NCBI GenBank assembly: GCA_963576735.1
Contig: OY755183.1
Location: 9,009,213-9,073,212, forward strand
Direction: 5' to 3'
Source: Bedellia somnulentella
Lineage: Eukaryota > Arthropoda > Insecta > Lepidoptera > Bedelliidae
Length of the DNA stretch: 64,000 nt
Shown: in pieces, positions 14,591 through 61,632 of the stretch
Layout: each line of letters starts with the position of its first letter
Numbering within the stretch: the first letter of the stretch is position 1
Program-made: the position numbers and the translations under genes
The notes under the pieces: generated by a model
The model's database searches: none
The model's input: the letters and a program-made list of their open reading frames with translations, nothing else
Told to the model about the DNA's origin: nothing

Positions 14591-14690
14591 TTAGTCTGCC
14601 AACTTTTTTTAAATATAGGTTTTTGGTTAGAGCTGAAAATAGAAGTTTACTGATTACATACATACATACATATAAATAAAATGTAAATTT

Positions 14691-18326: not shown

Positions 18327-19020
18327 CTTATATTACGCAGACGAAGTAACGCGGGTCACTTCGTTGCGTATATAATTATAACAGAAGTGGTAAGAAATTA
18401 CACACAGTATAATAAGTAAAACTAATATTTTCCAACGTATTTAATGACAGTGTTAGTGTGTTGCACAGCTTCAACGTAATGTTATATTACATTAACATTA
18501 TAAACCGATTAAGGTTTACCTGAGCTCAAATTTCCAACTGCGTTGAAAGTTCGACTGATATTTTATTCAGTTGAAGTAATTTATCAGGCTTGATAGTTTC
18601 GCTGCAGGATACAGATGGCATTTTCAATAAGTGAACTTCTAATGTTACTTTGATTACAATATGATGACTGCATACTTTGTGATCAGCTGATAAAACAGTA
18701 ATTATCGCTTTAAAAACTATATATTCGTTTACGCCCGATTTCTGAATTGAGTATTCAAGCTGAGAAAGACTTAAGTATCGTTTTGTCTCATTCAGTTGTT
18801 AAGATTTCAATGTGACAGAACTATAATTTAGTTGTTTTCAGCTGGAATACTCAATTTAGAAATCGGTCGTTAGTGTCTTATATGAGACAAATTAAGATAG
18901 GAAAGGTCCCATGTGTAGAAAAAATTAAATGAGAAACTATAAAACATATCCATCGTAATTTTCAACGCCTATAAGAGATTCAAAACTTCATTAATTCTAC
19001 CTTAGTTGGCTATATACATT
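18327..19020. other. Unrecognised stretch, shared by both copies
   Basis: No coding frame. A partial inverted pair (TTTCTGAATTGAGTATTC near 18739 and GGAATACTCAATTTAGAAA near 18843) is present; the counterpart in copy 2 is 24380-25088. Confidence 0.45.
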
Positions 19021-19112
19021 CGAATAGACTCACAGCTATAAATCCCAAAAAAGAGTAAACCAGAGCTTTAGAATTAGAAATTCTCCTGCCACATGAGAAA
19101 TTTGATAGGGGA
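19021..19112 (-). mobile_element. Degenerate SINE B 3' end
   Basis: Reverse complement of the SINE B 3' half (CTCACAGCTATAAATCCC onward). The counterpart is at 25089-25181. Confidence 0.6.
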
Positions 19113-19189
19113 TAAGGGGATGAAAAGGGGGGGGGGATAGGGGTAAGAAAGGATGATGTATGTTGGTGTTGTTGTAGTCGTCCTATGGC

Positions 19190-19500
19190 ACCCAACTAAT
19201 GCACAGGGCCTGCAGAAGCTCCCAGCACGCCCTCTTGTCTGCCGCGACGTCTTTGGCCGCACTCTAGCTCAGTTCCGCAGCTTGCAGCTCATTCTCCACG
19301 CTCCGGCGCTAAGTGTGTAAGGGACGGCTGCGGGCTCGCGACCCGACTGGTGTTCTCCACTCAAAGCCAATGCCGAAGTTTGTGGCTCCTCTTCAAAGGG
19401 TCTGCCCAATCCACCTCCATTTTCTAAGTGCCATGTAACCGGAAACTGCTGGCATTGTTTCCACAGGTACACGATGGGGATAGTCATTGGCTCGTAAATG
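19190..19500. other. GC-rich island of unknown nature
   Basis: Visibly GC-richer than its surroundings, with a poly-G run just before it (about 19126-19136). No frame has convincing protein content on either strand. It is duplicated at 25250-25580, with a short difference near 19434 versus 25497. It could be an old repeat or an ancient coding remnant; I do not recognise it. Confidence 0.4.
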
Positions 19501-19636
19501 GGAAGAATGATGGTTGGTGATAAATAAATCCCTTAGTTACATCGAACGACATTAATGGAAAATCATTGGAATAAAAAACAAAAATCTACGAACATGATAT
19601 TTTGTTAGATTAAATTATAAATAGTGTGTTTTAGTG

Positions 19637-20100
19637 TAGTGTAGTGCCGGCTTAGAATGTCGCTACCCCTTTCTACCCACGGGTGTCGTAAGAGGCGACT
19701 ATGGGTATTGGGGTTTTTATTGGATTTTTGGGCGATGAGGTTGGAGACCCATCACCAAAAACCTTTATTTTTACCATCTTTTCCCCACTCAACTTCCAAA
19801 AGTGGCTGAGGAATTTATAATTCCTTAGCTCTGGTTACACCTTCTAGGGAAATATAGCCGTGAGTATATGTATGTATGTATGTTGTTTTTTGTCGTGTAG
19901 TGCCGGCCTAGAATGTCACTACCTCGTGTTACGGGTGTCGTAAGAGGCGACTAAGGGTATGGAGCTTTTTAAAGTGGTTTTTGACTACCATCTTGCCCTC
20001 TATCAACTTCCAGATGGGGCGAAAGAGTTTCAAGCTCTGAAACTCTGAAACTATCCCTTTTTGGGATTTATGTCCGTTAGTATATGTACGTATGTGTTTT
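19637..20100 (+). mobile_element. Tandem pair of SINE B copies
   Basis: A full-length copy at 19637-19883 with a (TATG)n tail, then a diverged copy at 19895-20100. Both are present in copy 2 (25702-25952 and 25960-26165), so they predate the duplication. Confidence 0.8.
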
Positions 20101-21156
20101 ATAATCAGTGGTTTGGTGTTGGAGTCCAACTAGCAACTAACTGTGTTATTTTAAGTACGTATTGTATTTATCAAACTTTATGTCAAAGCGAAACGTATGC
20201 AGAGAAAACTAATAACATTCAGTTAACAACTTGAAAACCAAGATAGTGTGTGATTATAACTTTGATATTAATTTTAAGGACGGCGGCATGTTATGTTGAA
20301 ATTCATTTCTGTTTAACTAACTTTCCTTTGTTTCGATATTAGCTGAAGATTTATTACACAATGATAGAGTTAATTTGTGTATTTGAAATTTCTATGAGAT
20401 CTTCGTAGCTAATAAAGTTTTTTGCATACATACAACATAGAAATAGTACAGATTTAGATTCCTAAAAAGGGAAAAATAATACGGACGGATGTTTATTTGC
20501 CATTTCAGGCACAAGAAAAGAAATAATGAACAAAATAAATACAAACAGTGTAAAGTGACATTGGCTTACTAAAAATCTTAATTATATGGCCAAACTATTC
20601 CTTTAAACATTGACAATCGCAGCGTAATAAAAACACAGAAATTTGTATATGTATAGCAATAATAAAAATGTTAGTTTTACACATACAAAAACCAATTTTC
20701 AGAAGAATTATGAATCTAGAGAAGCAGCGGGTGGATATCCTATATAAAATTTCATGTAGTCTGTCAATACTACATTTCTCAACAGAGCTTTTAAGTAATA
20801 AGATAAAATTGTAAAACAAGTTTAACTATTTACTGGCAACAAAATACCTCTTACATATGAAGAACAACAATGTTCTTATTGAAACAGTACTCTCTGATCC
20901 AATTGCATCGTAAACAGGACATTACTCCATCCATTACTCTACTAATGCATACGTTTCCTTTGGCGCACCTTCTATTATTCAGAAAGCGGAAACACTCTAA
21001 TTATATTGCCGTGTCTTCGCGATTTGAATCAGTAGTGCATAGTTTCTGTTCCTACGTAATTAAGGTATATACGAGATGTATGAGATGTTGCGAATTAGGG
21101 AATTGTTAACTGAAAAGAGATTGGTATGGTATACGAATTAAGTAAAACTGTTCAGA
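20101..21156. other. Unrecognised AT-rich stretch
   Basis: Short frames on both strands are not coding-like; the same sequence is found at 26166-27223 with few changes. Confidence 0.45.
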
Positions 21157-21460
21157 AGCTTCATAGCTCAGTAGGAAGAACACCGCTTCTAATGCTGGCA
21201 ACGCAAGTTTGTAATACTGAGTCTAGCTTACACCGACGTGCTGTTTATTGAGTCATTTATTTCGCTTATTCATAAAGTTGTTAACTGTTAAGGAAAACAT
21301 CGAAAAGAAAGTCACATAGCTGAATTGTAGTTATCCTTGCGGCAAAGTGGCGAAAAGCCTGCCTCTATCACGTGAATGCAAAGTCCAAACAAAAAGTGGT
21401 ACTCACTTTTTGTTTGAACTCTGAACACCAGGTGGTAAATGGAAGTATTAAGATCTCCCC
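21157..21460 (+). mobile_element. Old SINE A copy
   Basis: tRNA-like head CATAGCTCAGTAGGAAGAAC and a body matching SINE A. It contains a 13-bp hairpin CAAACAAAAAGTG / CACTTTTTGTTTG (about 21373-21413) absent from other copies. Counterpart 27224-27545. Confidence 0.7.
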
Positions 21461-21624
21461 TCCACAAAATAAATTCGAAATACATCGCATCATCATCATC
21501 ATAGTTTATTAAGATTTTTTTTTTAAATTGCTTGTTTATCACTAGGAGAACAAATATATATTCAAGTTAGGCAGTGTTGAAAATGTTATAAAATACAAAA
21601 ATAATAATACTACTTCTAAAACTT

Positions 21625-21705
21625 TGTAGTGTTGGCTTAGAATAGCACTTACATATTTCTTCGCGATGTAATCGTAAGAGGCGATTTAGGGCATTGTGGC
21701 TCCGT
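21625..21705 (+). mobile_element. SINE B head fragment
   Basis: GTAGTGTTGGCTTAGAATAG then GTAAGAGGCGA; 3' part lost. Counterpart near 27708-27788. Confidence 0.6.
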
Positions 21706-22303
21706 CTTCGTCTTAATATAATATGGTGAAGACAGCGACTTTATAATTATTTGTAAAAGTAAATTATTATTTTTTTATTCATAGAGTTGTTAAACTTATT
21801 AATAGTTAGTAACCTCCAACGGATGACTTATGAAATAAGTTCATTTTTTCACCATTGCACCCTTACAGAATATAATTAACAAACGTTATAAAACTAAGTT
21901 GGAATCTACTTTGTTCAAAAACATTTGTAGCTATCTTAAAATACTGTCCTTTAATTTGATAAAAGTAAAACAAAATAATTGTCAAAAGAATATTTACATT
22001 TTACAATTACATAGTAAATTATAATGTTATGAAATAATATATATTTAAATGGAACAACAACTACCATCGAAAGCTTAACGATTAATTTATGCCATCAAGG
22101 AATAGTTAAACAGTATTTAAAATTCTTAAACAGCAAGCACCTTAAGTGCAAATTACTAATTAATATCAGTATAGTGCAATACCAAGAACTGTGCAGTTTC
22201 CAAGATGATAGATTCTGTTTCGCAACACTGTTTAATTAAATTGCTCTGAATATTATAATTGTGTGACTCATCCTAGGAAAACTTCCTTTGGGTTAATATT
22301 AAT

Positions 22304-22597
22304 TTACATACATACATACATATACTCACGGCTGTAAATCCCTAGAAGGGGTAGCCAGAGCTAAGGAATTAGAAATTCTTTAGCCACTTTTGGAAATGTG
22401 AGTGGGGAAAAGATGGTAAAAATAAAGGTTATTGGTGATGGGTCTCCAACCGCATCGCCCAAAAATCCCTTAAAAGCCCCAATACCGTTAGTCGCCTCTT
22501 TCGTTCACCCATCGGTAGAAACGGGGTAGTGACATTCGAAGCCGACACTACACGGCAAAGCCGACACTACACGGCAAAGCCGACACTACACGGCAAA
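22304..22597 (-). mobile_element. SINE B with amplified 5' end
   Basis: Full SINE B on the minus strand. Its 5' boundary is repeated: a 19-bp unit (GCCGACACTACACGGCAAA) occurs three times here (22541-22597) but twice in the duplicate (28630-28667). Confidence 0.8.
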
Positions 22598-22659
22598 AAA
22601 AATAATTTGTTGTTAATATTACTTTAAGTTTAAATACTTTGTATGAATAAAACTACGTG

Positions 22660-22895
22660 GAATATGAATGAATGTGGTGAACGGTAAGTGAAAATATTGT
22701 GTGAAATTCTTTTTTCTTTGTTGAGCTTAGTCATATGATATTCATTCAAAGCGGCAACAGGCTTGCCACCTTTCCCGTAAATAAAATATCGAGGTAAAAA
22801 AATAAATTACCTTAACAGGTGACAAAAGCTACACTACACATCGTGTCATAAGTAGTTACACCTCTGCCGTACTTTCGGGATGATACGGCGTAAAC
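22660..22895 (+). mobile_element. Very degenerate SINE A
   Basis: Recognisable from AACGGTAAGTG, CAACAGGCTTGCC, CTCTGCCG and ACGGCGTAAACG in the family order. Counterpart 28735-28975. Confidence 0.6.
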
Positions 22896-23577
22896 GCTGA
22901 GGTGAAAATCTTTCATAATATAATAAATAGATAGTCTTTTCTCTAAGTCTAGTTACAATTTCCCATACAAACTTTTTTATAGTTTCATTTGCCGGCAAAA
23001 TGTGACACTAATCGTATTGATATTCAAGGACTGTATAATAAAAATTTAGAAAAAAATTATATAGTTTAGAACTGTAACAGCCCTTATCACTTAGAAGTGT
23101 TAAATAGTGATAAACCTATTTTCTGACTAACCGAGTGTATATGCAAAATTTCACATAAATGGTTTTAGCCGTTTCGGAAGAGTGTGGTGAAAAACACAGT
23201 GATACATGAATTTTAAATATAAGAAGATTATATGATGAAGGATGTTCCAATCTTAAAAAATATACCTGCGAATTTAAATCAAAACTGAACGTGTTATTAA
23301 GTAAAATTATGTTCATTGAAATTTGAAATAGATGTTCATGATAAATATATGGAGTAAGGAAGTAATAGGAAACTTTGATTGAAGTAAGTTACTGCAGACT
23401 TAGTTCTTTACAAACCGCTTGAGCAGCCAATTTCTCATTTAAAAATTACCTCTCATAGTTTAAACCGTCAACTGAAACTTAATTTTTGCATAAAATTGCA
23501 ACAATCATAGCCTATGGAAAGTAAATCATTTATAAATTCTCTATTTTACAAACCCGTTGATATTTACGCTTGATAAT
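22896..23577. other. Unrecognised end of duplication copy 1
   Basis: No gene or repeat recognised; the counterpart is 28976-29646. Confidence 0.45.
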
Positions 23578-23858
23578 AAGGATCTTTATTATTTTAGATT
23601 ATTCTCATATACAATTTGGTTTGGTCAAATATTGGTTATTCAATACTCCTTAAAATACGTTTGTGTTGTAAATATACATTCGAAACTGCAGCTGAGCGAA
23701 GCGAAGAAAAGAAAAGCATTTGAAATCTTTTCATTGTGATTGATTTTCCATTTATTTCATAAGTGAATGGGTTTTAGACTAAAACAGAATGTACTAATAC
23801 TGTTTTAATCTAAAACCAACTTTTATCAGCTGTTTATGCTAAAATATATCATTTTGAC

Positions 23859-24075: not shown

Positions 24076-25701
24076 GTCGTTAGTCTGCCAACTTTTTTTA
24101 AATATAGGTTTTTGGCCATAGCTGAAAATAGAAGTTTACTAATTGTTGCGGATATATCAAGCTCTGAACCTTATTGTCTTTTGTTAATTTTCATTGCCAT
24201 CAATTAGTTTTATGTGATTAAGAAAAGTCAAATAAATTACAACTTACTGACTTATTCTTATTGGGATTGGCAGAGACCATCGATAGCCACTTTGCATGAT
24301 TTTGACAAATCTCTCTTGCTTCCCTTACATTCATTATTAATATTAAATACATATTTACATACAGATTTTTTTCTTATAGACGTCTTATATTACGCAGACG
24401 AAGTTACGCGGTTCACTTCGTTGCATATATAATTATAACAGAAGTGGTAAGAAATTACACACGGTATTATAAAGTAAAACTAATATTTTCCAACGTATTT
24501 AATGATAGTTTTAGTCTGTTGCACAGCTTCAATGTAATGTTATATTATATTCACATTATAAACCGATTAAGGTTTACCTGAGCTCAAAATTTCCAACTGC
24601 GTTGAAAGTTCGACTGATATTTTATTCAGTTGAAGTAATTTATCAGGCTTGATAGTTTCGCTGCAGGATACAGATGGCATTTTCAATAAGTGAACTTCTA
24701 ATGTTACTTTGATTACAATATGATGACTGCATACTTTGTGATCAGCTGATAAAACAGTAATTATCGCTTTAAAAACTATATATTCGTTTACGCCCGATTT
24801 CTGAATTGAGTATTCAAGCTGAGAAAGACTTAAGTATCGTTTTGTCTCATTCAGTTGTTAAGATTTCAATGTGACAGAACTATAATTTAGTTGTTCTCAG
24901 CTGGAATACTCAATTTAGAAATCGGTCGTTAGTGTCTTATATGAGACAAATTAAGATAGGAAAGGTCCCATGTGTAGAAAAAATTAAATGAGAAACTATA
25001 AAACATATCCATCGTAATTTTCAACGCCTATAAGAGATTCAAAACTTCATTAATTCTACCTTAGTTGGCTATATACATTCGAATAGACTCACAGCTATAA
25101 ATCCCAAAAAAGAGTAAACCAGAGCTTTAGAATTAGAAATTCTCCTGCCACATGAGATATTTGATAGGGGATAAGGGGATGAAAAGGGGGGGGGGGGATA
25201 GGGGTAAGAAAGGATGATGTATGTTGGTGTTGTTGTAGTCGTCCTATGGCACCCAACTAATGCACAGGGCCTGCAGAAGCTCCCAGCACGCCCTCTTGTC
25301 TGCCGCGACGTCTTTGGCCGCACTCTAGCTCAGTTCCGCAGCTTGCAGCTCATTCTCCACGCTCCGGCGCTAAGTGTGTAAGGGACGGCTGCGGGCTCGC
25401 GACCCGACTGGTGTTCTCCACTCAAAGCCAATGCCGAAGTTTGTGGCTCCTCTTCAAAGGGTCTGCCCAATCCACCTCCATTTTCTAAGTGCCGTGTCAG
25501 TTACAACCGGAAACTGCTGGCATTGGTTCCACAGGTACACGATGGGGATCGTCACTGGCTCGCAAATGGGAAGAATGATGGTTGGTGATAAATAAATCCC
25601 TTAGTTACATCGAACGACATTAATGGAAAATCATTGGAATAAAAAACAAAAATCTACGAACATGATATTTTGTTAGATTAAATTATAAATAGTGTGTTTT
25701 A

Positions 25702-26165
25702 GTGTAGTGTAGTGCCGGCTTAGAATGTCGCTACCCCTTTCTACCCACGGTTGTCGTAAGAGGCGACTATGGGTATTGGGGTTTTTATTGGATTTTTGGG
25801 CGATGAGGTTGGAGACCCATCACCAAAAACCTTTATTTTTACCATCTTTTCCCCACTCAACTTCCAAAAGTGGCTGAGGAATTTATAATTCCTTAGCTCT
25901 GGTTACACCTTCTAGGGAAATATAGCCGTGAGTATATGTATGTATGTATGTTGTTTTTTGTCGTGTAGTGCCGGCCTAGAATGTCACTACCTCGTGTTAC
26001 GGGTGTCGTAAGAGGCGACTAAGGGTATGGAGCTTTTTAAAGTGGTTTTTGACTACCATCTTGTCCTCTATCAACTTCCAAATGGGGCGAAAGAGTTTCA
26101 AGCTCTGAAACTCTGAAACTATCCCTTTTTGGGATTTATGTCCGTTAGTATATGTACGTATGTGT
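25702..26165 (+). mobile_element. SINE B pair (copy 2 counterpart)
   Basis: Near-identical to 19637-20100; both copies and their order are conserved. Confidence 0.8.
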
Positions 26166-27223
26166 TTTATAATCAGTGGTTTGGTGTTGGAGTCCAACTA
26201 GCAACTAACTGTGTTATTTTAAGTACGTATTGTATTTATCAAACTTTATGTCAAAGCGAAACGTATGCAGAGAAAACTAATAACATTCAGTTAACAACTT
26301 GAAAACCAAGATAGTGTGTGATTATAACTTTGATATTAATTTTAAGGACGGCGGCATGTTATGTTGAAATTCATTTCTGTTTAACTAACTTTCCTTTGTT
26401 TCGATATTAGCTGAAGATTTATTACACAATGATAGAGTTAATTTGTGTATTTGAAATTTCTATGAGATCTTCGTAGCTAATAAAGTTTTTTGCATACATA
26501 CAACATAGAAATAGTACAGATTTAGATTCCTAAAAAGGGAAAAATAATACGGACGGATGTTTATTTGCCATTTCAGGCACAAGAAAAGAAATAATGAACA
26601 AAATAAATACAAACAGTGTAAAGTGACATTGGCTTACTAAAAATCTTAATTATATGGCCAAACTATTCCTTTAAACATTGACAATCGCAGCGTAATAAAA
26701 ACACAGAAATTTGTATATGTATAGCAATAATAAAAATGTTAGTTTTACACATACAAAAACCAATTTTCAGAAGAATTATGAATCTAGAGAAGCAGCGGGT
26801 GGATATCCTATATAAAATTTCATGTAGTCTGTCAATACTACATTTCTCAACAGAGCTTTTAAGTAATAAGATAAAATTGTAAAACAAGTTTAACTATTTA
26901 CTGGCAACAAAATACCTCTTACATATGAAGAACAACAATGCTCTTATTGAAACAGTACTCTCTGATCCAATTGCATCGTAAACAGGACATTACCCCATCC
27001 ATTACTCTACTAATGCATACGTTTCCTTTTGCGCACCTTCTATTATTCAGAAAGCGGAAACACTCTAATTATATTGCCGTGTCTTCGCGATTTGAATCAG
27101 TAGTGCATAGTTTCTGTTCCTACGTAATTAAGGTATATACGAGATGTATGAGATGTTGCGAAGTAGGGAATTGTTAAGTGAAAAGAGATTGGTATGGTAT
27201 ACGAATTAAGTAAAACTGTTCAG

Positions 27224-27545
27224 AAGCTTCATAGCTCAGTAGGAAGAACACCGCTTCTAATGCTGGCAACGCAAGTTTGTAATCCTGAGTGTAGCTTACA
27301 CCGACGTGCTGTTTATTGAGTCATTTATTTCGCTTATTCATAAAGTTTATTAACTGTTAAGGAAAACATCGAAAAGAAAGTCACATAGCTGAATTGTAGT
27401 TATCCTTGCGGCAAAGTGGCGATAAGCCTGCCTCTATCACGTGAATGCAAAGTCCAAACAAAAAGTGGTACTCACTTTTTGTTTGAACTCTGAACACCAG
27501 GTGGTAAATGAGTCATGTTACGTTCGGAAGTATTAAGATCTCCCC
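27224..27545 (+). mobile_element. Old SINE A (copy 2 counterpart)
   Basis: As 21157-21460, retaining the same private hairpin and about 15 extra bases near 27509. Confidence 0.7.
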
Positions 27546-28392
27546 TCTACAAAATAAATTCGAAATACATCGCATCATCATCATCATAGTTTATTAAGAT
27601 TTTTTTTTAAATTGCTTGTTTATCACTAGGAGAACAAATATATATTCAAGTTAGGCAGTGTTGAAAATGTTATAAAATACAAAAATAATAATACTACTTC
27701 TAAAACTTTGTAGTGTTGGCTTAGAATAGCACTTACATATTTCTTCGCGATGTAATCGTAAGAGGCGATTTAGGGCATTGTGGCTCCGTCTTCGTCTTAA
27801 TATAATATGGTGAAGACAGCGACTTTATAATTATTTGTAAAAGTAAATTAATTTTTTTTGATTCATAGAGTTGTTAAACTTATTAATAGTTAGTAACCTC
27901 CAACGGATGACTTATGAAATAAGTTCATTTTTTCACCATTGCACCCTTACAGAATATAATTAACAAACGTTATAAAACTAAGTTGGAATCTACTTTGTTC
28001 AAAAACATTTGTAGCTATCTTAAAATACTGTCCTTAAATTTGATAAAAGTAAAACAAAATAATTGTCAAAAGAATATTTACATTTTACAATTACATAGTA
28101 AATTATAATGTTATGAAATAATATATATTTAAATGGAACAACAACTACCATCGAAAGCTTAACGATTAATTTATGCCATCAAGGAATAGTTAAACAGTAT
28201 TTAAAATTCTTAAACAGCAAGCACCTTAAGTGCAAATTACTAATTAATATCAGTATAGTGCAATACCAAGAACTGTGCAGTTTCCAAGATGATAGATTCT
28301 GTTTCGCAACACTGTTTAATTAAATTGCTCTGAATATTATAATATAATTGTGTGACTCATCCTAGGAAAACTTCCTTTGGGTTAAAATTAAT

Positions 28393-28667
28393 TAACATAC
28401 ATACATACATATACTCACGGCTGTAAATCCCTAGAAGGGGTAGCCAGAGCTAAGGAATTAGAAATTCTTCAGCCACTTTTGCAAATGTGAGTGGGGAAAA
28501 GATGGTAAAAATAAAGGTTATTGGTGATGGGTCTCCAACCGCATCGCCCAAAAATCCCTTAAAAGCCCCAATACCGTTAGTCGCCTCTTACGTTCACCCA
28601 TTGGTAGAAACGGGGTAGTGATATTCTAAGCCGACACTACACGGCAAAGCCGACACTACACGGCAAA
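28393..28667 (-). mobile_element. SINE B (copy 2 counterpart)
   Basis: As 22304-22597 but with two, not three, 19-bp units at its 5' boundary. Confidence 0.8.
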
Positions 28668-29646
28668 AAAAATAATTTGTTGTTAATATAACTTTAAGTT
28701 TAAACACTTTGTATGAATAAAACTACGTGGATTATGAATGAATGTGGTGAACGGTAAGTGAAAATATTGTGTGAAATTCTTTTTTCTTTGTTGAGCTTAG
28801 TCATATGATATTCATTTAAAGCGGCAACAGGCTTGCCACCTTTCTCGTATATAAAATATCGAGGTAAAAAAATAAATTCCCTTAACAGGTGACAAAAGCT
28901 ACACTACACATCGTGGCATAAGTAGTTACACCTCTGCCGTACTTTCGGGATAATACGGCATATACACTGAGGTGAAAATCTTTTATAATATAATAGATAG
29001 TCTTTTCTCTAATTCTAGTTACAATTTCCCATGCAAACTTTTTTACAGTTTCATTTGTCGGCAAAATGTGACACTAATCGTATTGTTCTCCAAGGACTGT
29101 ATAATAAAAATTTAGATAAAAAAAAATATATTTTAGAAGTGTAACAGCCTTTATCACTTAGGAGTGTTAAATAGTGATACACCTATTTTCTGACCTACCG
29201 AGTGTACATGCAAAATTTCACATCAATGGGTTTAGCCGTTTCGGAAGAGTGTGGTGAAAAGCACAGTGACACATGAATTTTAAATATAAGAAGATTATAT
29301 GATGAAGGATGTTCCAATCTTAAAAAATATACCTGCGAATTTAAATCAAAACTGAACGTGTTATTAAGTAAAATTATGTTCATTGAAATTTGAAATAGAT
29401 GTTCATGATAAATATATGGAGTAAGGAAGTAATAGGAAACTTTGATTGAAGTAAGTTACAGCAGACTTAGTTCTTTACAAACCTCTTGAGCAGCCAATTT
29501 CTCATTTAAAAATTACCTGTCATAGTTTAAACCGTCAACTGAAACTCAATTTTTGCATAAAATTGCAACAATCATAGCCTATGGAAAGTAAATCATTTAT
29601 AAATTCTCTATTTTACAAACCCGTTGATATTTACGCTTGATAATAA

Positions 29647-30556: not shown

Positions 30557-32339
30557 AAAGTTATTGTTAAATATTTTTCTGTTACAAAAAACTTACTAAT
30601 TTTATCTTAGATACTTTGAAAGTAATTTAAGTCGTAAAGAATAAAACCTTGAGCTCATTAAGAAAAAACTAAGTATGCATGACGATCTGTCATCATACCT
30701 GCATATAAGACACATACATGCATGTACTCAAATCCATTTATCCTAAAACATAGAGCTTTTAAACTAGAAATTCCTAAGTCACTTTCGGAAGTTGGGTAAA
30801 GAAAATTACTTTTACATCCCCAAAAACTCTAGTCGTCTCTTACGACATTTTCACGGGAAGAAATGTGTTAGTGTCTTTTTAAGTCAGTGCTATGTTTGTT
30901 AGATAATTTCGTAAATACTTGAACAATGCTTTATAGACATTCGCGAAATATTTCGTATAAAGGTGCTCGTATATGATGTTCACAATTTCATTGAAGTCAG
31001 AAAACTGCTTGCTTCTACGTTATACGCAAAGAGTTTACTGCTCCTCAGGGCATTCACTTCAACGGGTTCCGTTGTCTTGTGATAGCAACCAAACTTTATA
31101 TGCTTCTGTACATTAGTTTCCTTAGGTGATTCAGAATTTATAGCTTTTGATTCCAATAAAAATGTTCTATGTTATTCTAGTTATCTTGTTGTTACGCGAG
31201 CGGAACTGTGTTGGAAATATTTTTCTTTGTAAATAAATTTTTACTTACTGACACATGCATCTTTATTCATCAGGAAAAACTATAGTACGCTATAATGTAC
31301 AAAATTGGCGTATAAAATTTTGTCACGCTTATAAATGCGAAAATGTTTATTGTAACAGTTACCAAAATTGCTGTTTGTTATATGCATACATACATATACA
31401 AATACAAAATTCCTCAGCCACTTTCAGAAGTTGAGAGGAGGAAAAAAAGATTTTAATAAAAAGGTTGTAGGTGATGGGTTTTCAACCGCATCACCCAACA
31501 ATCACTTAAAAATCCGCAATACCCTTGGTCGCCTCTTACGAACACCCACGGGAAATAATGAGTAGTGCTATTCTAAGCCGACACTACACAGCTATGAAAA
31601 AGGTTTATATTTGTTTGTATCTGTGTATCTGTATATTTGTTTGCCAAGCCGGTCTAAGCCAGCGCTGTGGGCTAAAGGCCAACTTGCACTGTTCAGGGTA
31701 AGCTCGTGTTCCTCACTACACAATACGGGTAGAAATGTGTTATTGCTATTGTAGTAAATGGGGTAACCTATAGTTTAAAACAGTTTTTAAAACAAGATAT
31801 GGTTCTGGAAATACAAAGCAACGAAGAACAGCATTGTTATACCGTTCTTAAAACACATTAGTAGTTCAAGTAAGGTACTTAAAGACATATACATACTTGA
31901 AACTTTTTCATACATGCTCAAATTGTTGTTAAGTCTAGACCTGAATGTTTTTTGCAAGGCCTAATAATCTCTTTTTGACACAAAAAATACTAGGGTCCTA
32001 CCATTTATTACTTACGCCAAATAATGCAATATCAAATTAGAAATTATTATTATGAGTTCAGAAATCTAATTACAAGAGCTGTAACAAAACTTTCCTCATA
32101 ATTTTCTTAATAACCTACCATGAAGCTTATGATTTATGAAGCGTGACGTCACGGTGGGTTGCTCTGAAAAATAAATTGGCTCATTTGTAATTGAACTAAT
32201 TTAAATTGAGTTCGACAAAGCTTTTATTCTTAAGAACTTGCTCGTTCCTTGTTATTTATCATTATTATTTTCTTCTACAGTCTGAAACTTAATAAAGACT
32301 GTTCATTTTCTAGATATTATTGTTTATAAAACAAAGTTT
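30557..32339. repeat. 1.78-kb tandem duplication, copy 1
   Basis: Direct repeat with 32353-34137, offset 1796 bp, with only scattered substitutions and small indels. It contains a degenerate SINE B (about 30703-30895, minus) and a better one (31378-31595, minus) that lacks its 3' hairpin segment. No coding frame. Confidence 0.93.
31378..31595 (-). mobile_element. SINE B lacking its 3' hairpin segment
   Basis: Tail-like CATACATACATATAC followed directly by the mid-body; head GTGTAGTGTCGGCTTAGAAT on the minus strand. Duplicated at 33176-33393. Confidence 0.75.
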
Positions 32340-32352
32340 ATTACATTTTTAC

Positions 32353-34137
32353 AAAGTTATTGTTAAATATTTTTCTGGTACAAAAAACTTACTAATTTTA
32401 TCTTAGATACTTTGAAAGTAATTTAAGTCGTAATGAATAAAACCTTGAGCTCATTAAGGAAAAACTAAGTATGCATGACGATCTGTCATCATACCTGCAT
32501 GTAAGACACTACATGCATGTACTCAAATCCATTTATCCTAAAAACTAGAGCTTTTAAACTAGAAATTCCTAAGCCACTTTCGAAAGTTGGGTAAAGAAAA
32601 TTACTTTTACATCCCCAAAAACTCTAGTCGTCTCTTACAACATTTTCACGGGAAGAAATGTGTTAGTGTCTTTTTAAGTCAGTGCTATGTTTGTTAGATA
32701 ATTTCGTAAATACTTGAACAATGCTTTATAGACATACTACGCGAAATATTTCGTATAAAGCTGCTCGTATATGATGTTCACAATTTCATTGAAGTCAGAA
32801 AACTGCTTGCTTCTACGTTATACGCAAAGAGTTTACGGCTCCTCAGGGCATTCACTTCAACGGGTTCCGTTGTCTTGTGATAGCAAACAAACTTTATATG
32901 CTTCTGTACATTAGTTTCCTTAGGTGATTCAGAATTTATAGCTTTTGATTCCAATAAAAATGTTCTATGTTATTCTAGTTATCTTGTTGTTACGCGAGCG
33001 GAACTGTGTTGGAAATATTTTTCTTTGTAAATAAATTTTTACTTACTGACACATGCATCTTTATTCATCAGGAAAAACTATAGTACGCTATAATGTACAA
33101 AATTGGCGTATAAAATTTTGTCACGCTTATAAATGCGAAAATGTTTATTGTAACAGTTACCAAAATTGCTGTTTGTTATATGCATACATACATATACAAA
33201 TACAAAATTCCTCAGCCACTTTCAGAAGTTGAGAGGAGGAAAAAAAGATTTTAATAAAAAGGTTGTAGGTGATGGGTTTTCAACCGCATCACCCAACAAT
33301 CACTTAAAAATCCGCAATACCCTTGGTCGCCTCTTACGAACACCCACGGGAAATAATGAGTAGTGCTATTCTAAGCCGACACTACACAGCTATGAAAAAG
33401 GTTTATATTTGTTTGTATCTGTGTATCTGTATATTTGTTTGCCAAGCCGGTCTAAGCCAGCGCTGTGGGCTAAAGGCCAACTTGCACTGTTCAGGGTAAG
33501 CTCGTGTTCCTCACTACACAATACGGGTAGAAATGTGTTATTGCTATTGTAGTAAATGGGGTAACCTATAGTTTAAAACAGTTTTTAAAACAAGATATGG
33601 TTCTGGAAATACAAAGCAACGAAGAACAGCATTGTTATACCGTTCTTAAAACACATTAGTAGTTCAAGTAAGGTACTTAAAGACATATACATACTTGAAA
33701 CTTTTTCATACATGCTCAAATTGTTGTTAAGTCTAGACCTGAATGTTTTTTGCAAGGCCTAATAATCTCTTTTTGACACAAAAAATACTAGGGTCCTACC
33801 ATTTATTACTTACGCCAAATAATGCAATATCAAATTAGAAATTATTATTATGAGTTCAGAAATCTAATTACAAGAGCTGTAACAAAACTTTCCTCATAAT
33901 TTTCTTAATAACCTACCATGAAGCTTATGATTTATGAAGCGTGACGTCACGGTGGGTTGCTCTGAAAAATAAATTGGCTCATTTGTAATTGAACTAATTT
34001 AAATTGAGTTCGACAAAGCTTTTATTCTTAAGAACTTGCTCGTTCCTTGTTATTTATCATTATTATTTTCTTCTACAGTCTGAAACTTAATAAAGACTGT
34101 TCATTTTCTAGATATTATTGTTTATAAAACAAAGTTT
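32353..34137. repeat. 1.78-kb tandem duplication, copy 2
   Basis: Separated from copy 1 by 13 bp. The near-identity indicates a recent event, clearly younger than the 6-kb duplication upstream. Confidence 0.93.
33176..33393 (-). mobile_element. SINE B (duplicate of 31378-31595)
   Basis: Same truncated SINE B carried by the duplication. Confidence 0.75.
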
Positions 34138-51007: not shown

Positions 51008-51212
51008 AAAAAAAAAAAGTCAAAAAGTTTATTTTTCAAAATTAAGTTAAAAATTAACATTTTTTGAACGTCAATTTTTTTTAAATTTATCATTAGTCCG
51101 TTGCTTCGGAAGGTGTTCGTAAAGAGAAGAAGCAACAAAGAAACTCTTTACATACACATTTTTTCATTTTTTCAAAACATGGTTTGTACAATTTCAGTTT
51201 ATTAACAGCATG
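51008..51212 (-). other. 3' UTR end of the split LINE
   Basis: In reverse complement it carries GAGTTTCTTTGTTGC, ACACCTTCCGAAGC and TTGACGTTCAAAAAATG, matching the 3' UTR of the LINE at 3881-4075. The rest of the LINE resumes at 55340, on the far side of the DNA transposon. Confidence 0.8.
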
Positions 51213-51236
51213 CTTAGTAATAAACGGGCCTAACTC
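51213..51236 (+). repeat. Left terminal inverted repeat of the DNA transposon
   Basis: 24 bp beginning CTTAGTAATAAACGGGCC. The mate is at 55312-55335. Confidence 0.85.
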
Positions 51237-51861
51237 AAAAATGGGACAAAATTAGTTATTGTAATAAAACGGCTTTTAACGAACAGGACTATCGGCTCTC
51301 TTTCTTAAACAAGCCTAAATCAAGCAATAAACAGAGATAGCACGAGTTACTGCGTTTCACTTTTAACAAGATTGCGAATATGATTTGGTGGTAAAGCAGC
51401 TAACTTCAGTTTTGTTCCGACTAGCTTAGAGGCAAGACGTCGCTTTCGTGGCACATTTGGAGATAGAACGTTATTCGATTCAAGATAACGTGAGTATTTT
51501 TACCAATTTTAATCAAACATAAGCCTATTTGGACTTACCTCATTTTATCACAAATTAAAACGCAAAATGGAGTGATCTAATTCGATATGGTTCTTTTTAT
51601 GAGAAAAAACACTTGGAAGCTTGGTGTACTATTAAGACAAACATTAGTTTATTACTTCAGGGCGGGTTTATTCATAGGACTATGTCTTGATATATCGATT
51701 TATGATTTTTTTTGTTGTGAATTTTGTTGCTACAGTATGACATATTCATTTATTTTTATGGAATACAACGCAAAATTATGTGCTTTATTTGTAGGTATCT
51801 CGTTTTATGTATATGAAAATGTATAAATTTCAAATTCATTTATGTTTTAACTTATTTTAGC

Positions 51862-54310
51862 ATGAGTAAAAGAATAAAAGAAATTTTGCGGCTTGCTGGT
51901 GCCGCTAATGAACTGCGAGAAAATCTCGGGCAATCGTGTCTGGGTGCCGAAAACACTTCAAATGCAGGTGCCATTAATTTGGTAAGTCCAGGTTATAAAT
52001 TCTTTTAGAATCACTTTAAAATTTCGATGCTTAAATTACCCCTATTATATTTATTGCAATCGCCTATTGCTATGAAGCTTAATCTTATTTTTAGCTTCTA
52101 GTTATGTTCTCCTAGCTATCTATGTTTAATTTCGCAATAAAAACTTTGTTTATTACAGTCACAGTCGATCAATCTCACTCAAAATCAAGAGTCCCTGAAA
52201 ACACTAATTAATCAAAATGAGCCGACCGAAAAGGAGAATAGTGATATTATTGAGAATTCTTTTAATTCTTCTACGGACCAGGTAAATTATTTAGATCCGA
52301 AGTTGCTTAGAAGCCAAAGTGGTTCGTATGAGACAAGGAACATGATGCCTGACCCGCGATACGTATTTTCACCCATAAATTCAGGGGAGAGTGAAGTTGA
52401 TCTGAGTGATATTGACCCGACCTTCAATGTGGGTACTTTGCATCATAGTCGACCTAGAATTATAGAAAATTCATCTTCATCATCTGGATCTTCAACTAGC
52501 AGTTCTTCTTCTAGTTCTTCAGATTCCGACAGTTCTAGCTCAACGTCAGCTTCGGAGAATACACAATTGCCCAATACCACCCAAAAGCGAGGTCGAAAAA
52601 AAGTTAGTAAGCCGGAAACCTGGAGGCAAAACAAAGTACAGAAGTTAAGAAATAGCGGTAAACCCTACACGTCGTTATCTACTTCATCTAGATTGATTCC
52701 CGGTCGCAGCGTCAAAGCTCCTTGCACGGAAAGGTGTAGACTTAAGTGTCAAGAAAATGTTAATGAGGAGTCACGATTGGCCATATTTAATGCTTTCTGG
52801 GAGTTAGCAGATTTATACAAACAAAGGACTTTCATTGGCTCGTGCATGATTGATGTACAGCCCAAGTATAGGTATACGAATGCTGAAAACCCAAGGTGTT
52901 TTAATAAAGCTTATCACTTTACCGTTGATAATAAGCGAATTCGCGTCTGTAAGAAGTTTTTCAAAAGTACCTTAGATATTACCGATAGAATGATTCAGAC
53001 AACAAAAACTAAATATGGACGCAAATGGCATAGTACAAGAAGATTTTCGTGGAAAACACGAAAATCATAAAAAAATATCTGCTGAGCTGACGAGCGATAT
53101 TAAGGATCACATTAACTCTATACCTCGAATAGAGTCGCATTACCTGCGAAGTATGACGTCTAGGGAATATATTGATGGGTCAAAAACCATCACAGATTTG
53201 TACAAACACTTCGAAAAACAACAAACCGAAAAGGGAAAGGACCCAGGAAAATACAGTTCCTATTATAAAATATTTACCTCGGATTATAATTTAGGATTCT
53301 TCCAACCAAAGAAAGATCAATGTGATCTATGTATGACATATCAAAATGCTTCTCCTGGCGAAAAAGAACAGTTAAAACACAAAATTGAGGTTCATTTGAG
53401 AGAAAAACAACTGTCCCGCATCGAAAAAGATCTCGATCGTCAAAATATATCTGCAACTAATAGGGTTGTTGTATACGATTTACAGGCTGTAATGTCATGC
53501 CCTGATGGTGACACGTCCTCCTTTTATTATAAGTCAAAGTTAAATAGCTATAATTTTACTTTGAATAATCTTTTCAAAAAAGACGTTAATCATCTCTCTC
53601 ATAACCAGACACGGAAAAACAAAGAGTACGTAGCATATGATAAGGTTGATTGTTTTTTCTGGACGGAGACCGATGGCAAAAGAGGGGCAAACGAAATTGG
53701 GTCCTGTATTTATAAATACCTACAAGATATGAACAATAACGCGGAAGGTGATACAGATGTGATATTTTACTCAGATAACTGCTGTGGGCAGAACAAAAAT
53801 AAATATGTTACAACCATGTACATCTATGCAGTTTATTCATTAGAGAAAATAAAATCTATTACACATAAATTTCTTATAAAAGGCCACAGTCAAAATGAAG
53901 CTGACAATGTACACAGTTTAATCGAAAAAGAGATCAAGAAAAATAGAAAATCTGGCCCTATATACTGCCCACAGCAATATATAGCGTTAATAAAAAATGC
54001 AAAGAAAAGTAAACACCCTTTTGTAGTCCATGAACTTACATTTGATTTTTTCAAAGACCTAAAATTATTGCAAGAAGAATGGGGCTACAACTACAATGTC
54101 AATGATGAGGGTGAAAATGTTATATGGAATGATATTAAAGTTATAAAAATTACTAAACAGGATCCTTTTGTATTTTACTACAAAAATTCATTTGATCAAA
54201 AAGAGTATAGTAAAATATTTCTGCGAAATAAAAGGAAGAAGATGCCCATCATATCGGATATTTGTTTACACACATTATACAGGGAAAAGTTGAAATTGAC
54301 TGATAACTAG
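51862..54310 (+). pseudogene. Transposase-like gene, two coding exons, one frameshift
   Basis: Exon 1: ATG 51862 to 51981 (40 codons, MSKRIKEILRLAGAANELRE at the start). Intron 51982-52158 (GTAAGT...TTATTACAG). Exon 2 continues in frame from 52159; a Ser-rich tract lies near 52471-52556. A possible 5' UTR intron (51490-51860) precedes. Next come Cys-rich CTERCRLKCQENVNEE, then RVCKKFFKSTLDIT. The frame breaks at about 53014, where one extra T separates TTKTK from MDANGIVQEDFRGKHENHKK (frame 53015-54310). Downstream: FFQPKKDQCDLC, VVYDLQAV (D155 of the 53015 frame), FYSDNCCGQNKN (D254) and KGHSQNEADNVHSLIE (H291, E295, D297). These acidic motifs resemble an RNase H-fold DDE/D transposase core and match a common uncharacterised insect family (DUF7869, from memory). 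About 756 residues if the frame is repaired. The single indel makes this copy probably inactive. Confidence 0.75.
51982..52158 (+). other. Predicted intron of the transposase-like gene
   Basis: GTAAGT donor after ATTAATTTG and a TTTATTACAG acceptor; both neighbouring exons are in the same phase and read through cleanly. 177 bp. Confidence 0.65.
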
Positions 54311-55311
54311 AAAAAAGATTTACGACAATTGATTTCACAGAAACTCATACCAAACTACTACGTAGATTATTATAACGCTATATTGTAACTTATCCTTATT
54401 GTATTTGTAGTTATTATATTATTTTGATACTGGCTTTTATATATATATATATAATAGCTAACTTTTGTTTTACACTTACAGAAAGTGTATTGTATCCAAA
54501 GGAGATTATTATGGTTTTTATGTTGTTCTCAAGAAGTAAGATAATTTGATTTTTGTTCTTTTGAAGTTCACTATTGTAAAGCAAAGTGTATAATATATTG
54601 TTTTTAATGTTAACTGGACGCTGATAGGGATAGGTACTTAGTGGATTATTGATTGTGCACTATGCAGCATAGATGTCAATAATTTTATAACTACTTACTA
54701 CGAATTATGGCTTGATCTCATTGTGACTAGACAAGACTGATTGATACTTTATCGTCAAAGACGAGTTTAGATATTTAATAGTTTGGTGCCATAAGATTTG
54801 ATTATCTTTCTATTGTCAACAATTTGGTAACACCTATGTTATTTTTTATGATCATGATGATTACAATTTTCATACTGCATTTTTATTTACGCCCTCTTAA
54901 TATTACTGGTTATTACTACTAAAACGCCATATTCACAATTAGCATGTCGTTATTTTGAAACTATTTTGTAGTAATTAGGATTAATACGAATTATTGACCT
55001 AGTAAGTAATATTGATTTTGTACAAAAAAGCATTATTTGGGCTTAATTTGATAATACAATTGAGTTTTTTTGCTAAATTTTGTGATAAAGTGACTTATCA
55101 CTGCAACATATTTTTTAAAGCCCTAATAATATTATCCAAAATGTAAAAATAACTTAGTTTAATTAAAAATGTGCAAGCAAGCATTATAACCAACACGAAA
55201 AATAGGAAAAAAAATATAAAAATAATAAAAATCTCACAAACAATTTAACTGAAACGAAAAGTGCTAGTTACTGCAAACTTTAAACACGATTTACCACAAT
55301 TCACCTTTTTC

Positions 55312-55335
55312 GAGTTAGGCCCGTTTATTACTAAG
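55312..55335 (-). repeat. Right terminal inverted repeat of the DNA transposon
   Basis: Exact reverse complement of 51213-51236. Confidence 0.85.
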
Positions 55336-55514
55336 CATGCGACATGTTTTTACTTTATAAAAGATTTTCTATGCGACAAAACCAACGCTAGTTTGACATA
55401 TTTAAAATAAATTGTCCATCACAAAAACCAATCACATAACGTGAGAAGAAAAATCCTCACCAGACAATTATTCCTAGGAATAACGAGGGAAGATTTATAG
55501 CTTTACGGACACGG

Positions 55515-56750
55515 TCATGTGCGCGTTGGGTCCTTGTCGTTTAAAAAATCTTGAACACTGTAGTAAGACTTCTTTAAAAGCATGGCTTTTATTGCCTTTT
55601 TAAAAGATGCCACAGGCAATTCCAATATGTCAGAAGGAAGTTTGTTGAACATTTTCAGGGATAGTCCCATAAAGGAGTTACTTACTTTATTAAGTCTCCA
55701 CTTCGGTACGTCAAGTTTCTCCTTATTTCGAGTATTAACAGTATGCCTATCACTAACTTTACTAAATTGGCCTATATTCTTTTTGGCATACATTAAATTC
55801 TCAAATATGTATTGGCAAGGGACAGTTAAAATGCCAATATCTTTAAATTTTTCGCGCAACGAATACCTCGACCTCAACATGTAAATAGATCGGATAGCTC
55901 GCTTTTGTAAGACGAAAACTTTATGAACATCAGCCGCTTTACCCCATAATAAAATACCGTACGACATAATACTATGAAAATAACTGAAATACACAATACG
56001 AGCTGTTTCTACGTCTGCTATTTCTCTAATCTTACGCACGGCATACGCTGCTGAGCTCAGCCTTTTAGAAAGTGTTAGTATATGGGGTCCCCATTGCAAC
56101 TTAGAATCGATTATTATCCCTAGGAATTTTGTTTCTTTCACTAATTCTACTTGTTCACTATCAATAACAATATTGTTATCAACTTGCCTAACATTCGGTA
56201 AAGTAAATTTAATACATTTAGTTTTTTTGGCATTTAGAACCAGGTTATTTACAGTAAACCAATGCAATACCAGTGAGATAGCTTTATTTACGTCGTCAAG
56301 AGATGTAGAGGATCTCGCTACATTAAATATTAAAGATGTGTCATCTGCAAACATAACTATCTCAGAATACTTTTGTACCATAAATGGTAAATCATTAATG
56401 TAAATCAGAAACAGTAATGGGCCAAGTATAGAACCTTGAGGAACGCCCATCTCTATTTCCGATCCTTCCGACGTGGTTCCATTAATATCAACCTTTAAAG
56501 TTCTTTTATGAAGATATGATGCCATTAATTTCAGTGCTTGCTCGTCAAAACCGTAATATTTAAGTTTAATCAACGCTATTTCTTTTTTTACACAATCAAA
56601 AGCTTTTGTGAGGTCACAAAATATACCTAATGCATCCCGGGAGTTTTCCCATGAATTAAAAATATGTTTCATTAGTGACACTCCTGCATCTACAGTAGAC
56701 CTACCTTTGGTGAAACCATATTGCTCGTCATGGAATATATTATGATTGGG
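55515..56750 (-). CDS. LINE reverse transcriptase, 5'-truncated
   Basis: The long minus frame starts at 56798, but its first ~18 residues come from flanking DNA; LINE homology begins near HNIFHDEQYGFTKGRSTVDA (about 56745). RT motifs: GIFCDLTKAFDCV (catalytic Asp before LTKAFD present), MGVPQGSILGPLLF, MFADDTSLIF (FADD at residues 150-153 counted from 56798), FLGIIIDSKLQWGPHI, and the C-terminal SYFHSIMSYGILLWGKAADV. It is the closest relative in this window of ORF2 at 2174-3880 and retains the motif A that copy has lost. Endonuclease and ORF1 are missing. The frame is open to its stop; the 3' UTR is cut by the DNA transposon and resumes at 51008-51212. Confidence 0.85.
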   Translation of the reverse strand, partial: PNHNIFHDEQYGFTKGRSTVDAGVSLMKHIFNSWENSRDALGIFCDLTKAFDCVKKEIALIKLKYYGFDEQALKLMASYLHKRTLKVDINGTTSEGSEIEMGVPQGSILGPLLFLIYINDLPFMVQKYSEIVMFADDTSLIFNVARSSTSLDDVNKAISLVLHWFTVNNLVLNAKKTKCIKFTLPNVRQVDNNIVIDSEQVELVKETKFLGIIIDSKLQWGPHILTLSKRLSSAAYAVRKIREIADVETARIVYFSYFHSIMSYGILLWGKAADVHKVFVLQKRAIRSIYMLRSRYSLREKFKDIGILTVPCQYIFENLMYAKKNIGQFSKVSDRHTVNTRNKEKLDVPKWRLNKVSNSFMGLSLKMFNKLPSDILELPVASFKKAIKAMLLKKSYYSVQDFLNDKDPTRT

Positions 56751-56987
56751 TAGGCTCGAGCCCCTTGGTGGGGACATTATATGGGCTGGGAGGAACAATA
56801 AGTTAAATTTTCAAAGACTGTACTACATGTACATACAAAGTGTGTCTAGTGCTCCGTGGTATTCTCTGCTTTTTTTACTGCTTTCTATATTATTTTAAGG
56901 TATATCCTGCCGAAAAAAATGTCTTAAGTCTAGAGTTCAAATAAACTGTGAACGGACTGTAAAGTCTGGCGGCCCTGGGATCTTACT

Positions 56988-58756: not shown

Positions 58757-60905
58757 GACTTATTTATTTATTTAAACACTTTATTGCATACACAAACAGT
58801 ATATTACACAATAGTTACAACAGTACATGTACACAAAGGCGGACTTATCGCCTTAACGCGATTTCTTCCAGTCAACCTTTATGGTGAGGAACAAATTAGA
58901 CAACTCTTTAAAACATTATGGTCAAGTATATATGCAACTTAAATAGAACTTAACTAAACATAACTTATTTACAACCTGTATATTAATTATATATATAATA
59001 ATTATTATATCAAATATACTATACAATATCTTAATAAATATACATGTATATACATACTTATATAATATAATATAATAAATACAAATAAATACATATACCT
59101 ATCTTTATAAAATCTACCAACCTAAGGTTTTAAAAAAATGGGATTTCAGTTTATTTTTAAATATATTTAGTGATGATGACAGCCGTATGTCAACTGGTAG
59201 TGAGTTCCATAAATTAACTGCTCTGGCTGCAAAGGAATCACCATATGTAGCACTGTTATGAGAAGGTACACTCAACATCTTATTCTCCTGTGATCGCAAG
59301 GCACGGCCGTGGGAGCACAAGTATGTGAACTTGGAACGAAGATAATGGGGGGCAGCAGGATTATTAAGGGCATTATATAAAATACAGAGAATATGAGTAT
59401 TCCTCCGAAGTCGAATTGGGAGCCACTTTAGTTGAGCGCGGTACTCAGAAATATGATCATATTTACGTAATCCAAAAATAAATCGGATACATAAATTCTG
59501 GAGACGTTCGAGTTTGTTAAGTAGCTCCTCTGTGAGGTCAAGATAGCTTACATCTGCGTAATCGAGAATCGGAAGCAGTAGAGACTGCGCCAGCGTAATC
59601 TTAGTGTGGTGAGGCAGGAAAAATTGCAAGCGCTTAAGTGAGTGACAGGATGCAAAGACTTTTTTACTTACGGCTTCCACTTGGGGCAACCACGAAAATG
59701 TACTGTCCATAATAACTCCCAAATTCTTGACAGAATTGACGAAGCGAATATCAGTGCCATCATAGGTCAACTTCTTATCTAGAGCAATATTTGCTTTGTT
59801 CAACAACCTCGAACTGCCAAAAATAATTGCCTGTGACTTATCAGGATTCAGCAGAAGTCCAAACTTCTTCACCCATTTCGATATTATCTCCAGGTTATTA
59901 TTTATGACATCAACTGCCGAGTTTATATCTTCCGGAAGAGCACTTGTGTAGATTTGAAGGTCGTCTGCATATAGGTGATAGAGAGAAGTAAGTTCTTTAG
60001 CTAGGATATTAATAAATAGTGAAAAAAGCAAAGGAGAAAGTACGCCGCCTTGCGGGACGCCAGCCAGTACCGGGCACCAAGCAGAGCTCTCTGCGTCTGT
60101 GCGCACGCACTGCTGACGACCTTTAAGGTAAGATTCGAACCAATTGGTGACTGTCGGAGATACGTTAAGAGATCTTAAAATGCCAAGAAGTATATCAAGA
60201 TCCACAGTGTTAAATGCGTTACTGAAATCTAAAAGTGTAAGCACTGTAACTTGGTGATTTTCCATATTTAAGCGAATATCATCCGTGACCTTGATAAGAG
60301 CAGTAACAGTGCTATGACCTGTTCGGAACCCAGACTGGAAATCGTTCAGCAAGTGGTGAGTGGAAAGGAAGTTGGAAAATTGTTCGAATACGAGGCGTTC
60401 AAGAACTTTTGATAGGAATGGTAGGATGGAAATTGGGCGAAATTGGGATAAGGTGGTTGGGTTAGGAACTTTAGGAATAGGGACAATGAAGGCATTCTTC
60501 CACATTCTAGGGAATGAACAAGAGAGTAGGGATAAGTTCATTAAATTTGTAATGTGTGGCAAAATTATTTCCAGAATGGGATTAATCATTAAAGTACTAA
60601 CGTTGTCAGTACCTGTTGCCTTACTGGTTATATTAGAAATACATCTTTTAACGTCACGACCAGAGACCAATTTGAAAGTGAATTGTGGGCAATCAGGGGT
60701 AGGTGTAGAAACAAGATTGTTCAGAGCCTCAGCTTTACATTGATCACTAATGGTCAAGGGAGGAGTGGAGAAATGCGTATTAAGTGCATTGAGGTCTGTA
60801 TCTATAGGAGAATTGGCCTGAGATTTTCCTATGCCCAGTGATTTAAGGAATGACCATAACTGTGAGGTGTCACAATCGTCAATCGAAGTATCGTAGTATA
60901 TAATT
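58757..60905 (-). mobile_element. 5'-truncated LINE with (TAAA)n tail
   Basis: 3' UTR 58757-59113 ends in a (TAAATAAATAAG)-type tail; the coding part is 59114-60905. It abuts SINE B sequence at its 5' end. Confidence 0.82.
59114..60905 (-). CDS. LINE reverse transcriptase, 5'-truncated
   Basis: The frame opens at 61045, but its first ~46 residues are SINE B and flank read through in minus sense; LINE sequence starts near IIYYDTSIDDCDTSQLWSFL. RT motifs in order: FRPISILPFLSKVLERLVFE, FQSGFRTGHSTVTAL, LLDFSNAFNTVD (Asp of LLD present), LAGVPQGGVLSPLLFSLF, YADD at residues 359-362 (59960-59971). The C-terminal region RFIFGLRKYDHISEY, LKWLPIRLRR and RAVNLWNSLPVDIR is typical of insect LINE ORF2 proteins. 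Uninterrupted to its stop. Clade uncertain (jockey/CR1 superfamily); distinct from the other LINEs here. Confidence 0.84.
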
Positions 60906-60924
60906 ATCTTTTTCTTACTCACAT

Positions 60925-61632
60925 TTCCAAGTGGCTGAGAAATTTCTAATTCCCTAGCTCTGGCTACCCCTTCTAGGGATTTACAGCCGTGAGTATATGT
61001 ATGTATGTATTTTTTTAACTGAATTGTTATTTTTTTACACAGCATAAAATGTGTATGGTTTATTAGTATGACTTAAAAGTGTTCGTTTTGCTTGTGCAGT
61101 GTACCCACGTGATAGGGGCTGGCGTATCGACGTTTTGTACAAATAGACTGTCACATGACTAAGTTACATTTGCGTTAAAATTTTGTGAAGGTAGTTAGTA
61201 TTAATAATTTTATAGTACTGTATAATGACAAATAACATCTCAGTCTTCCCGTGACCATGATAACTGAAAAGTTTTCGAAACGTCGGGCTTTAAAAATAAT
61301 GTAATAACACGCGATTAAAATATCCGAAAATCAATAGTTGTTTCAATTATAATGTGCAATCGTGAAAATCTTAGAAAATACTATGGGAAAAAGATGTTAA
61401 AAATAAAGGTTATTGGGTAAAATAAATTGGTTGGATGGATGGTAAAAATAAATTGACCCATCAGGGTCTCCAACAGCATCGCCCAAAAATCCTTTAAAAG
61501 CCCCAATACCGTTAGTCGCCTCTTACGTACACCCATCGGTAGCAACGGGGTAGTGCCATTCTAAGCCGACACTAGACGGCGAACAACACATTTTATGCTG
61601 TGGAAACAAAAATAACAATTCAGTTAAAAAAT
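60925..61632. mobile_element. Rearranged SINE B halves with inverted 44-bp flanks
   Basis: The 3' half of a SINE B lies at 60925-61009 (plus) and the 5' half at 61386-61583 (minus). The block 61010-61053 reappears inverted at 61586-61631, adjoining the other SINE end. A SINE A mid-body fragment (61079-61180, minus) lies between. Confidence 0.7.

Follow-up and report, generated by a model that had tools for sequence, protein, structure and literature searches.

The locus considered here raises the question of whether an insect gene for a protein with a domain of unknown function, DUF7869 (PF25273), is the transposase of a mobile element, and where such an element ends and to which kind it belongs. 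The gene lies in a 64-kb stretch of the Bedellia somnulentella genome (C15:9009213-9073212 of the 549-Mb genome G000; hereafter the window), within a unit of ~4.13 kb bracketed by terminal inverted repeats (TIRs). We conclude, with a probability of roughly 0.92, that this unit is a real DNA transposon encoding the DUF7869 protein as its transposase; the figure covers the reading as transposon and transposase and excludes the assignment to the Sola superfamily discussed below.

The element spans positions 51208-55341 of the window and is flanked by ACA on the left and ACAT on the right. Starting at the G, the two ends agree in all of their first 29 bases (29/29). The right TIR (55312-55341, minus strand) is the 30-bp sequence CGCATGCTTAGTAATAAACGGGCCTAACTC, which starts CGCATGCTTAG reading inward and whose outer end is fixed by the unoccupied sites of another copy, C38, described below. 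The left TIR (GCATGCTTAGTAATAAACGGGCCTAACTC; 51208-51236, plus strand) is the same in four other copies and has apparently lost its outermost C. The window contains two occurrences of an 18-mer from the TIR where 0.04 would be expected (allowing up to three mismatches), and the perfect inverted repeats described in the initial annotation are therefore real, although their position was slightly off (51209-55339, with a 24-bp TIR starting CTTAG, instead of a 30-bp TIR starting CGCATG). By position and by comparison with other copies, the right target-site duplication (TSD) would be ACAT (55342-55345) and the left one ACA (51205-51207) with one T apparently lost, so that three of four letters agree. 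The insertion is surrounded by a long interspersed nuclear element (LINE), as had been noted before. When the element is removed, each flank matches part of one LINE copy within the window (3415-3806, 60%; 3881-4061, 66%); the matches are collinear, and the unmatched stretch between them is 243 bases here versus 74 there.

CATG is present on both sides of the window copy and had been taken as its target duplication. Since this motif is a palindrome, a duplication and an inverted repeat look alike in the window alone. The genome contains at least five copies with both ends, including the window copy (genome copy counts are lower bounds throughout), with a mutual identity of 99.0-99.7%. At the ten ends of these five copies, GCATGCTTAG occurs ten times and CGCATGCTTAG nine times; CATG is found at 10/10 ends and adjoins CG at 9/10. 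Such constancy points to an inverted repeat, and an unoccupied site decides the matter. With the joined flanks of copy C38 as a 400-base query, 26 of the 40 matches listed span the whole query, and all are shorter, 25 by 12 bases and one by 10, at 96-97% identity. Six of the 26 were read, and all six lack CGCATGCG plus one ATAT: they have CCAATATATATC, whereas copy C38 has CCAATATAT, CGCATG, the element, CATGCG, and ATATATC. CGCATG is thus part of the TIR and the duplication is the 4 bp outside it; copy C38 has ATAT as its TSD and a 30-bp TIR that begins with CGCATG. A CATG duplication next to a 24-bp TIR is refuted for this copy and retains practically no probability for the element as a whole.

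The flanks of copies C22 (ATAT/ATAT) and C24 (ATGT/ATGT) agree with a 4-bp TSD, and because ATGT is not palindromic, that of C24 is a true direct repeat. Copy C19 weighs against this pattern, as its flanks (CATA/TAAG) are without a 4-bp duplication; no match spanning its insertion was present among the matches listed. Between the 1-kb flanks of different copies there is a single similarity, 94 bp at 74%, which joins the left flank of C22 and the right flank of C19. The initial annotation had looked to other copies of the gene for the same TIRs, and the four other copies of the family carry them. Two of these copies have particular surroundings. Copy C38 (G000:C38:49613-54159 and L057-L062) interrupts a family-B DNA polymerase-like gene of a repeated element, named by eye from its translation, and copy C19 (G000:C19:16209665-16216789, L021) has intact ends and is enclosed by the two arms of a 232-bp inverted repeat (75%).

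The genome also holds related families. At least 109 of its stretches match the catalytic half of the window protein (658 candidates, 96 scored), and one copy can yield several of them. Five places outside the window family, picked as the highest-scoring ones with open frames, were completed; they fall in three families of 4.2-5.3 kb, and in each of the five the inverted repeats begin with CGC and the 4-bp duplication is exact (ATAA, ACAT, AAAT, ATTT, and ATAT). Over the ten insect copies together, which measure 4.1-5.3 kb and have a TIR of about 30 bp, the consistent flanking duplication sought in the initial annotation is exact in eight, agrees in three of four letters in the window copy, and is absent in C19. 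Five of the eight exact TSDs fit AWWT and seven fit ANNT, with ATGT and ACAT outside the former pattern and ATAA outside both.

The element was previously described as carrying one spliced gene. In 5/5 copies, a probable first exon of 40 amino acids (51862-51981, plus strand; MSKRIKEIL...) is open and is followed, in the right phase, by a probable GT-AG intron (51982-52158, plus strand), which supports splicing, and the transposase gene probably has a 5' intron; none of 164 relatives matches this exon. The first part of exon 2 (52159-53070, plus strand) encodes the N-terminal region, with a Ser-rich stretch and CxC...C cysteines, and leaves the family frame near 53017. The second part (52994-54310, plus strand) encodes the DUF7869 or RNase H-like catalytic domain and stops at an in-frame TAG (54308-54310), behind which lies a C-terminal tail kept in relatives (54311-54385, plus strand). 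The two long frames (52141-53070 and 52994-54310) are a single frame in relatives: 163 of the 164 match the region, 148 of them in two frames whose matched stretches touch or nearly do so. This leaves no room for an ordinary intron at the junction, and an intron between the two frames was rejected. Instead, the window copy bears a one-base frameshift near 53017 in addition to the TAG, and the four other copies read open at both positions as single frames of 744-748 codons. Besides the frames of this gene, no frame longer than 81 amino acids is present in the unit. The window copy is therefore damaged and would move only with enzyme from another copy.

The window protein matches PF25273 with 43.1 bits (Pfam gathering cut-off 26), and DUF7869 is the only family to pass the Pfam cut-off. 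Pfam gives no function for this domain; here, a transposase role is assigned to it together with element ends. The motifs DLQAV, SDNCCGQNKN, and KGHSQNEAD, which had been read from the sequence before, are all in the open reading frame 52994-54310. Relatives were compared as an insect set (164) and a bacterial-type set (124). The first conserved Asp (YDLQAV; codon 53477-53479, plus strand) is kept in 163/164 and 124/124, and the second (SDNCCGQNKN; 53774-53776, plus strand) and third (GHSQNEAD; 53903-53905, plus strand) in 164/164 and 124/124. The second and third are 41 or 42 residues apart wherever both motifs were found by pattern (155/164 and 117/124). The Glu of the IEKE motif, seven residues past the third Asp, was considered as the third catalytic acid and rejected, being kept in 158/164 insect-set proteins but replaced by Lys or Arg in 124/124 bacterial-type ones; the conservation pattern thus points to a D-D-D triad. 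Both sets also share four N-terminal cysteine positions and, ahead of the catalytic domain, a C..C..H group, all of which are probably zinc sites.

In the predicted models, the order of strands and helices fits an RNase H fold, and the highest-scoring solved structures are transposases and integrases, mariner-type transposases among them. The predicted fold thus resembles mariner transposases and retroviral integrases, in keeping with the RNase H-fold, transposase-like gene tied to visible boundaries that was initially suggested. Foldseek gave nothing at E 0.001 or better, and a search of solved structures by sequence gave one chance match only (E 5). The exact TIR was found in neither viral nor prokaryotic contigs (0 and 0), pattern searches for relatives in viral contigs gave 28, 8, and 31 matches, none of which was confirmed, and nothing came of searches in phages or in plasmids.

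DUF7869 also occurs in bacteria. A scan of prokaryote genomes returned nine bacterial loci; the bacterial proteins tested match PF25273 above the cut-off, and the alignment of the insect profile with the bacterial one extends over 464 columns (E 1.1e-13). In six of the nine loci, an inverted repeat brackets the gene, giving units of 2.0-2.7 kb that start with GG and have 25-30 of the first 30 repeat bases identical. The flanks agree exactly in three units (ATTT/ATTT, AAAT/AAAT, AATT/AATT) and with one mismatch in three (ATAT/ATGT, ATAT/ATTT, ATAT/ATTT). Eleven of the 12 flanks fit A(A/T)(A/T)T, a pattern that accounts for 3.5-5.6% of 4-mers there, but the boundaries were placed by eye, at the first G, while the flanks were visible, and this is not a clean test. 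Loci L002, L005, and L007 have no convincing inverted-repeat bracket (two of the three are contigs under 4 kb), and the gene of L001 is split in two frames. Five of the genomes with these loci have one copy each in the draft assembly. For 70 of the 120 bacterial-type proteins listed, the longest contig measures 2.0-2.5 kb; such lengths would be in line with assemblies breaking at repeated elements, but this proves nothing. Locus L004 (1806-3692) shows a weak match, below the cut-off, to the ISAzo13 transposase family (E 0.018), a possible distant link.

The DUF7869 gene could also be a passenger or a former host gene, with the real transposase located elsewhere. The transposase activity of DUF7869 is one that we infer and the window copy is broken, which would agree with a passenger. 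However, DUF7869 is the sole long gene in the unit, it is carried between repeats in copies of four insect families and in six bacterial units, and its predicted RNase H fold comes with a near-invariant triad, so that a passenger appears very improbable. Slightly less probable still is that the element belongs to another superfamily with short duplications, such as piggyBac, Kolobok, Ginger, or mariner, even though mariner-type transposases and integrases are the highest-scoring solved folds and one of the eight exact TSDs is ATAA, a sequence also printed for piggyBac insertions (PMC8634313). Only DUF7869 passes the Pfam cut-off, and TTAA, the duplication of piggyBac and Kolobok, is found in none of the eight exact insect TSDs. 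The families that match the window protein, as listed by a search where HMMER filters drop most matches above E 0.1, do not include the Ginger integrase family (rve, PF00665).

Likeness to Tc1/mariner (Mos1, Metnase/SETMAR) lies in the predicted RNase H fold and in the third catalytic acid, which is Asp in mariner transposases. In contrast, no sequence match to this group appeared in the Pfam and PDB searches, the DUF7869 elements give 4-bp duplications instead of TA, and 41-42 residues separate the second and third Asp. ISAzo13 and Zator (PF07592) are approached by the catalytic region of a single bacterial relative, the match in L004, but PMC10045372 gives 3-bp TSDs for both, compared to 4 bp in the DUF7869 elements.

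The transposon is probably a Sola2-like member of the Sola superfamily, because the triad, the TSD length, and the AT-rich target fit. According to PMC10741241, the transposase of Sola elements is of the DDD type; the elements, for the most part 2-9 kb in length, give TSDs of 4 bp, end in TIRs of 11-1124 bp, and occur from bacteria to metazoa. The DUF7869 elements resemble them in the three conserved Asp, in the 4-bp TSD (exact in 8/10 insect copies and 3/6 bacterial units), in their occurrence in bacteria (nine loci) and insects (named proteins), and in unit lengths and a TIR of ~30 bp that lie within these ranges. In dictyostelid Sola2 elements, according to PMC3627910, the TSDs are AWWT and the TIRs are short, with lengths of 12-13 and 21 bp; the insect DUF7869 group differs in its CGC ends, and an AWWT target fits it only partly. 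Reports of Sola elements in a moth and in mosquitoes already exist (PMC8634313, PMC7728395), which lowers the novelty.

Alternatively, the DUF7869 elements may form a superfamily apart from Sola, present in bacteria and animals and not yet recognised as such, with DD(41-42)D, two cysteine/histidine sites, a 4-bp A..T target, and 5'-CGC ends in the animal branch versus 5'-GG ends in the bacterial one. This would agree with the absence of any Sola or transposase name among the relatives listed (at most 120 per search), of any Pfam or NCBIfam transposase model reaching its cut-off, and of the word DUF7869 from the literature searched, where the motif words turned up only papers with unrelated titles. 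On the other hand, a DDD enzyme, a 4-bp TSD, and a range from bacteria to metazoa are printed for Sola (PMC10741241), as are AWWT duplications for dictyostelid Sola2 (PMC3627910), and we regard a separate superfamily as a possible but unlikely outcome. The suggestion that the element is possibly undescribed is supported in part: it is likely a new family of a known kind, with an enzyme that databases do not recognise.

A working model can be built on the ends, the copies, the 4-bp duplication with unoccupied sites for one copy, the conserved triad, and the predicted fold. Binding of the 30-bp inverted repeats (5'-CGCATGCTTAG) is probably the task of the N-terminal region with its cysteines, and the RNase H-fold domain with its three conserved aspartates would cut and join DNA. 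Insertion with a 4-base stagger, mostly at A-N-N-T sites, would duplicate 4 bp of the target, and the element may move by cut-and-paste rather than by copying.

Elsewhere in the window, two LINE open reading frames are located at 705-3880; the first holds a FCTLPYIYNYMSKHNNDIHM stretch repeated in tandem, and in the second an endonuclease match is followed directly by a match that begins midway through the reverse transcriptase profile, as if an internal deletion had occurred. Further LINE reverse transcriptase frames are found at 14676-16814, 55515-56810, and 59114-61072. A direct repeat of 5.3 kb (18323-23579 and 24380-29646) has 97.4% identity, and a second pair (30557-32339 and 32353-34137) has 99.0%. 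Between 9175 and 13415, Rfam identifies five tRNA genes on the plus strand and ARAGORN four, of which one is Tyr(gta) and the other three are given an odd anticodon of four bases.

This element links DUF7869, for which no function is listed and which occurs in hundreds of predicted proteins (those with a name being from insects), to a probable family of transposases whose ends and target are defined. Many of the 'genes' predicted in insects could accordingly be reclassified as mobile DNA. Counterparts in bacteria, with target duplications of a similar kind, are now at hand, and the four other copies, 99% identical and with the main frame open, make activity testable. If the elements did form a separate superfamily, its transposases would include insect proteins now labelled 'uncharacterised', in the hundreds.
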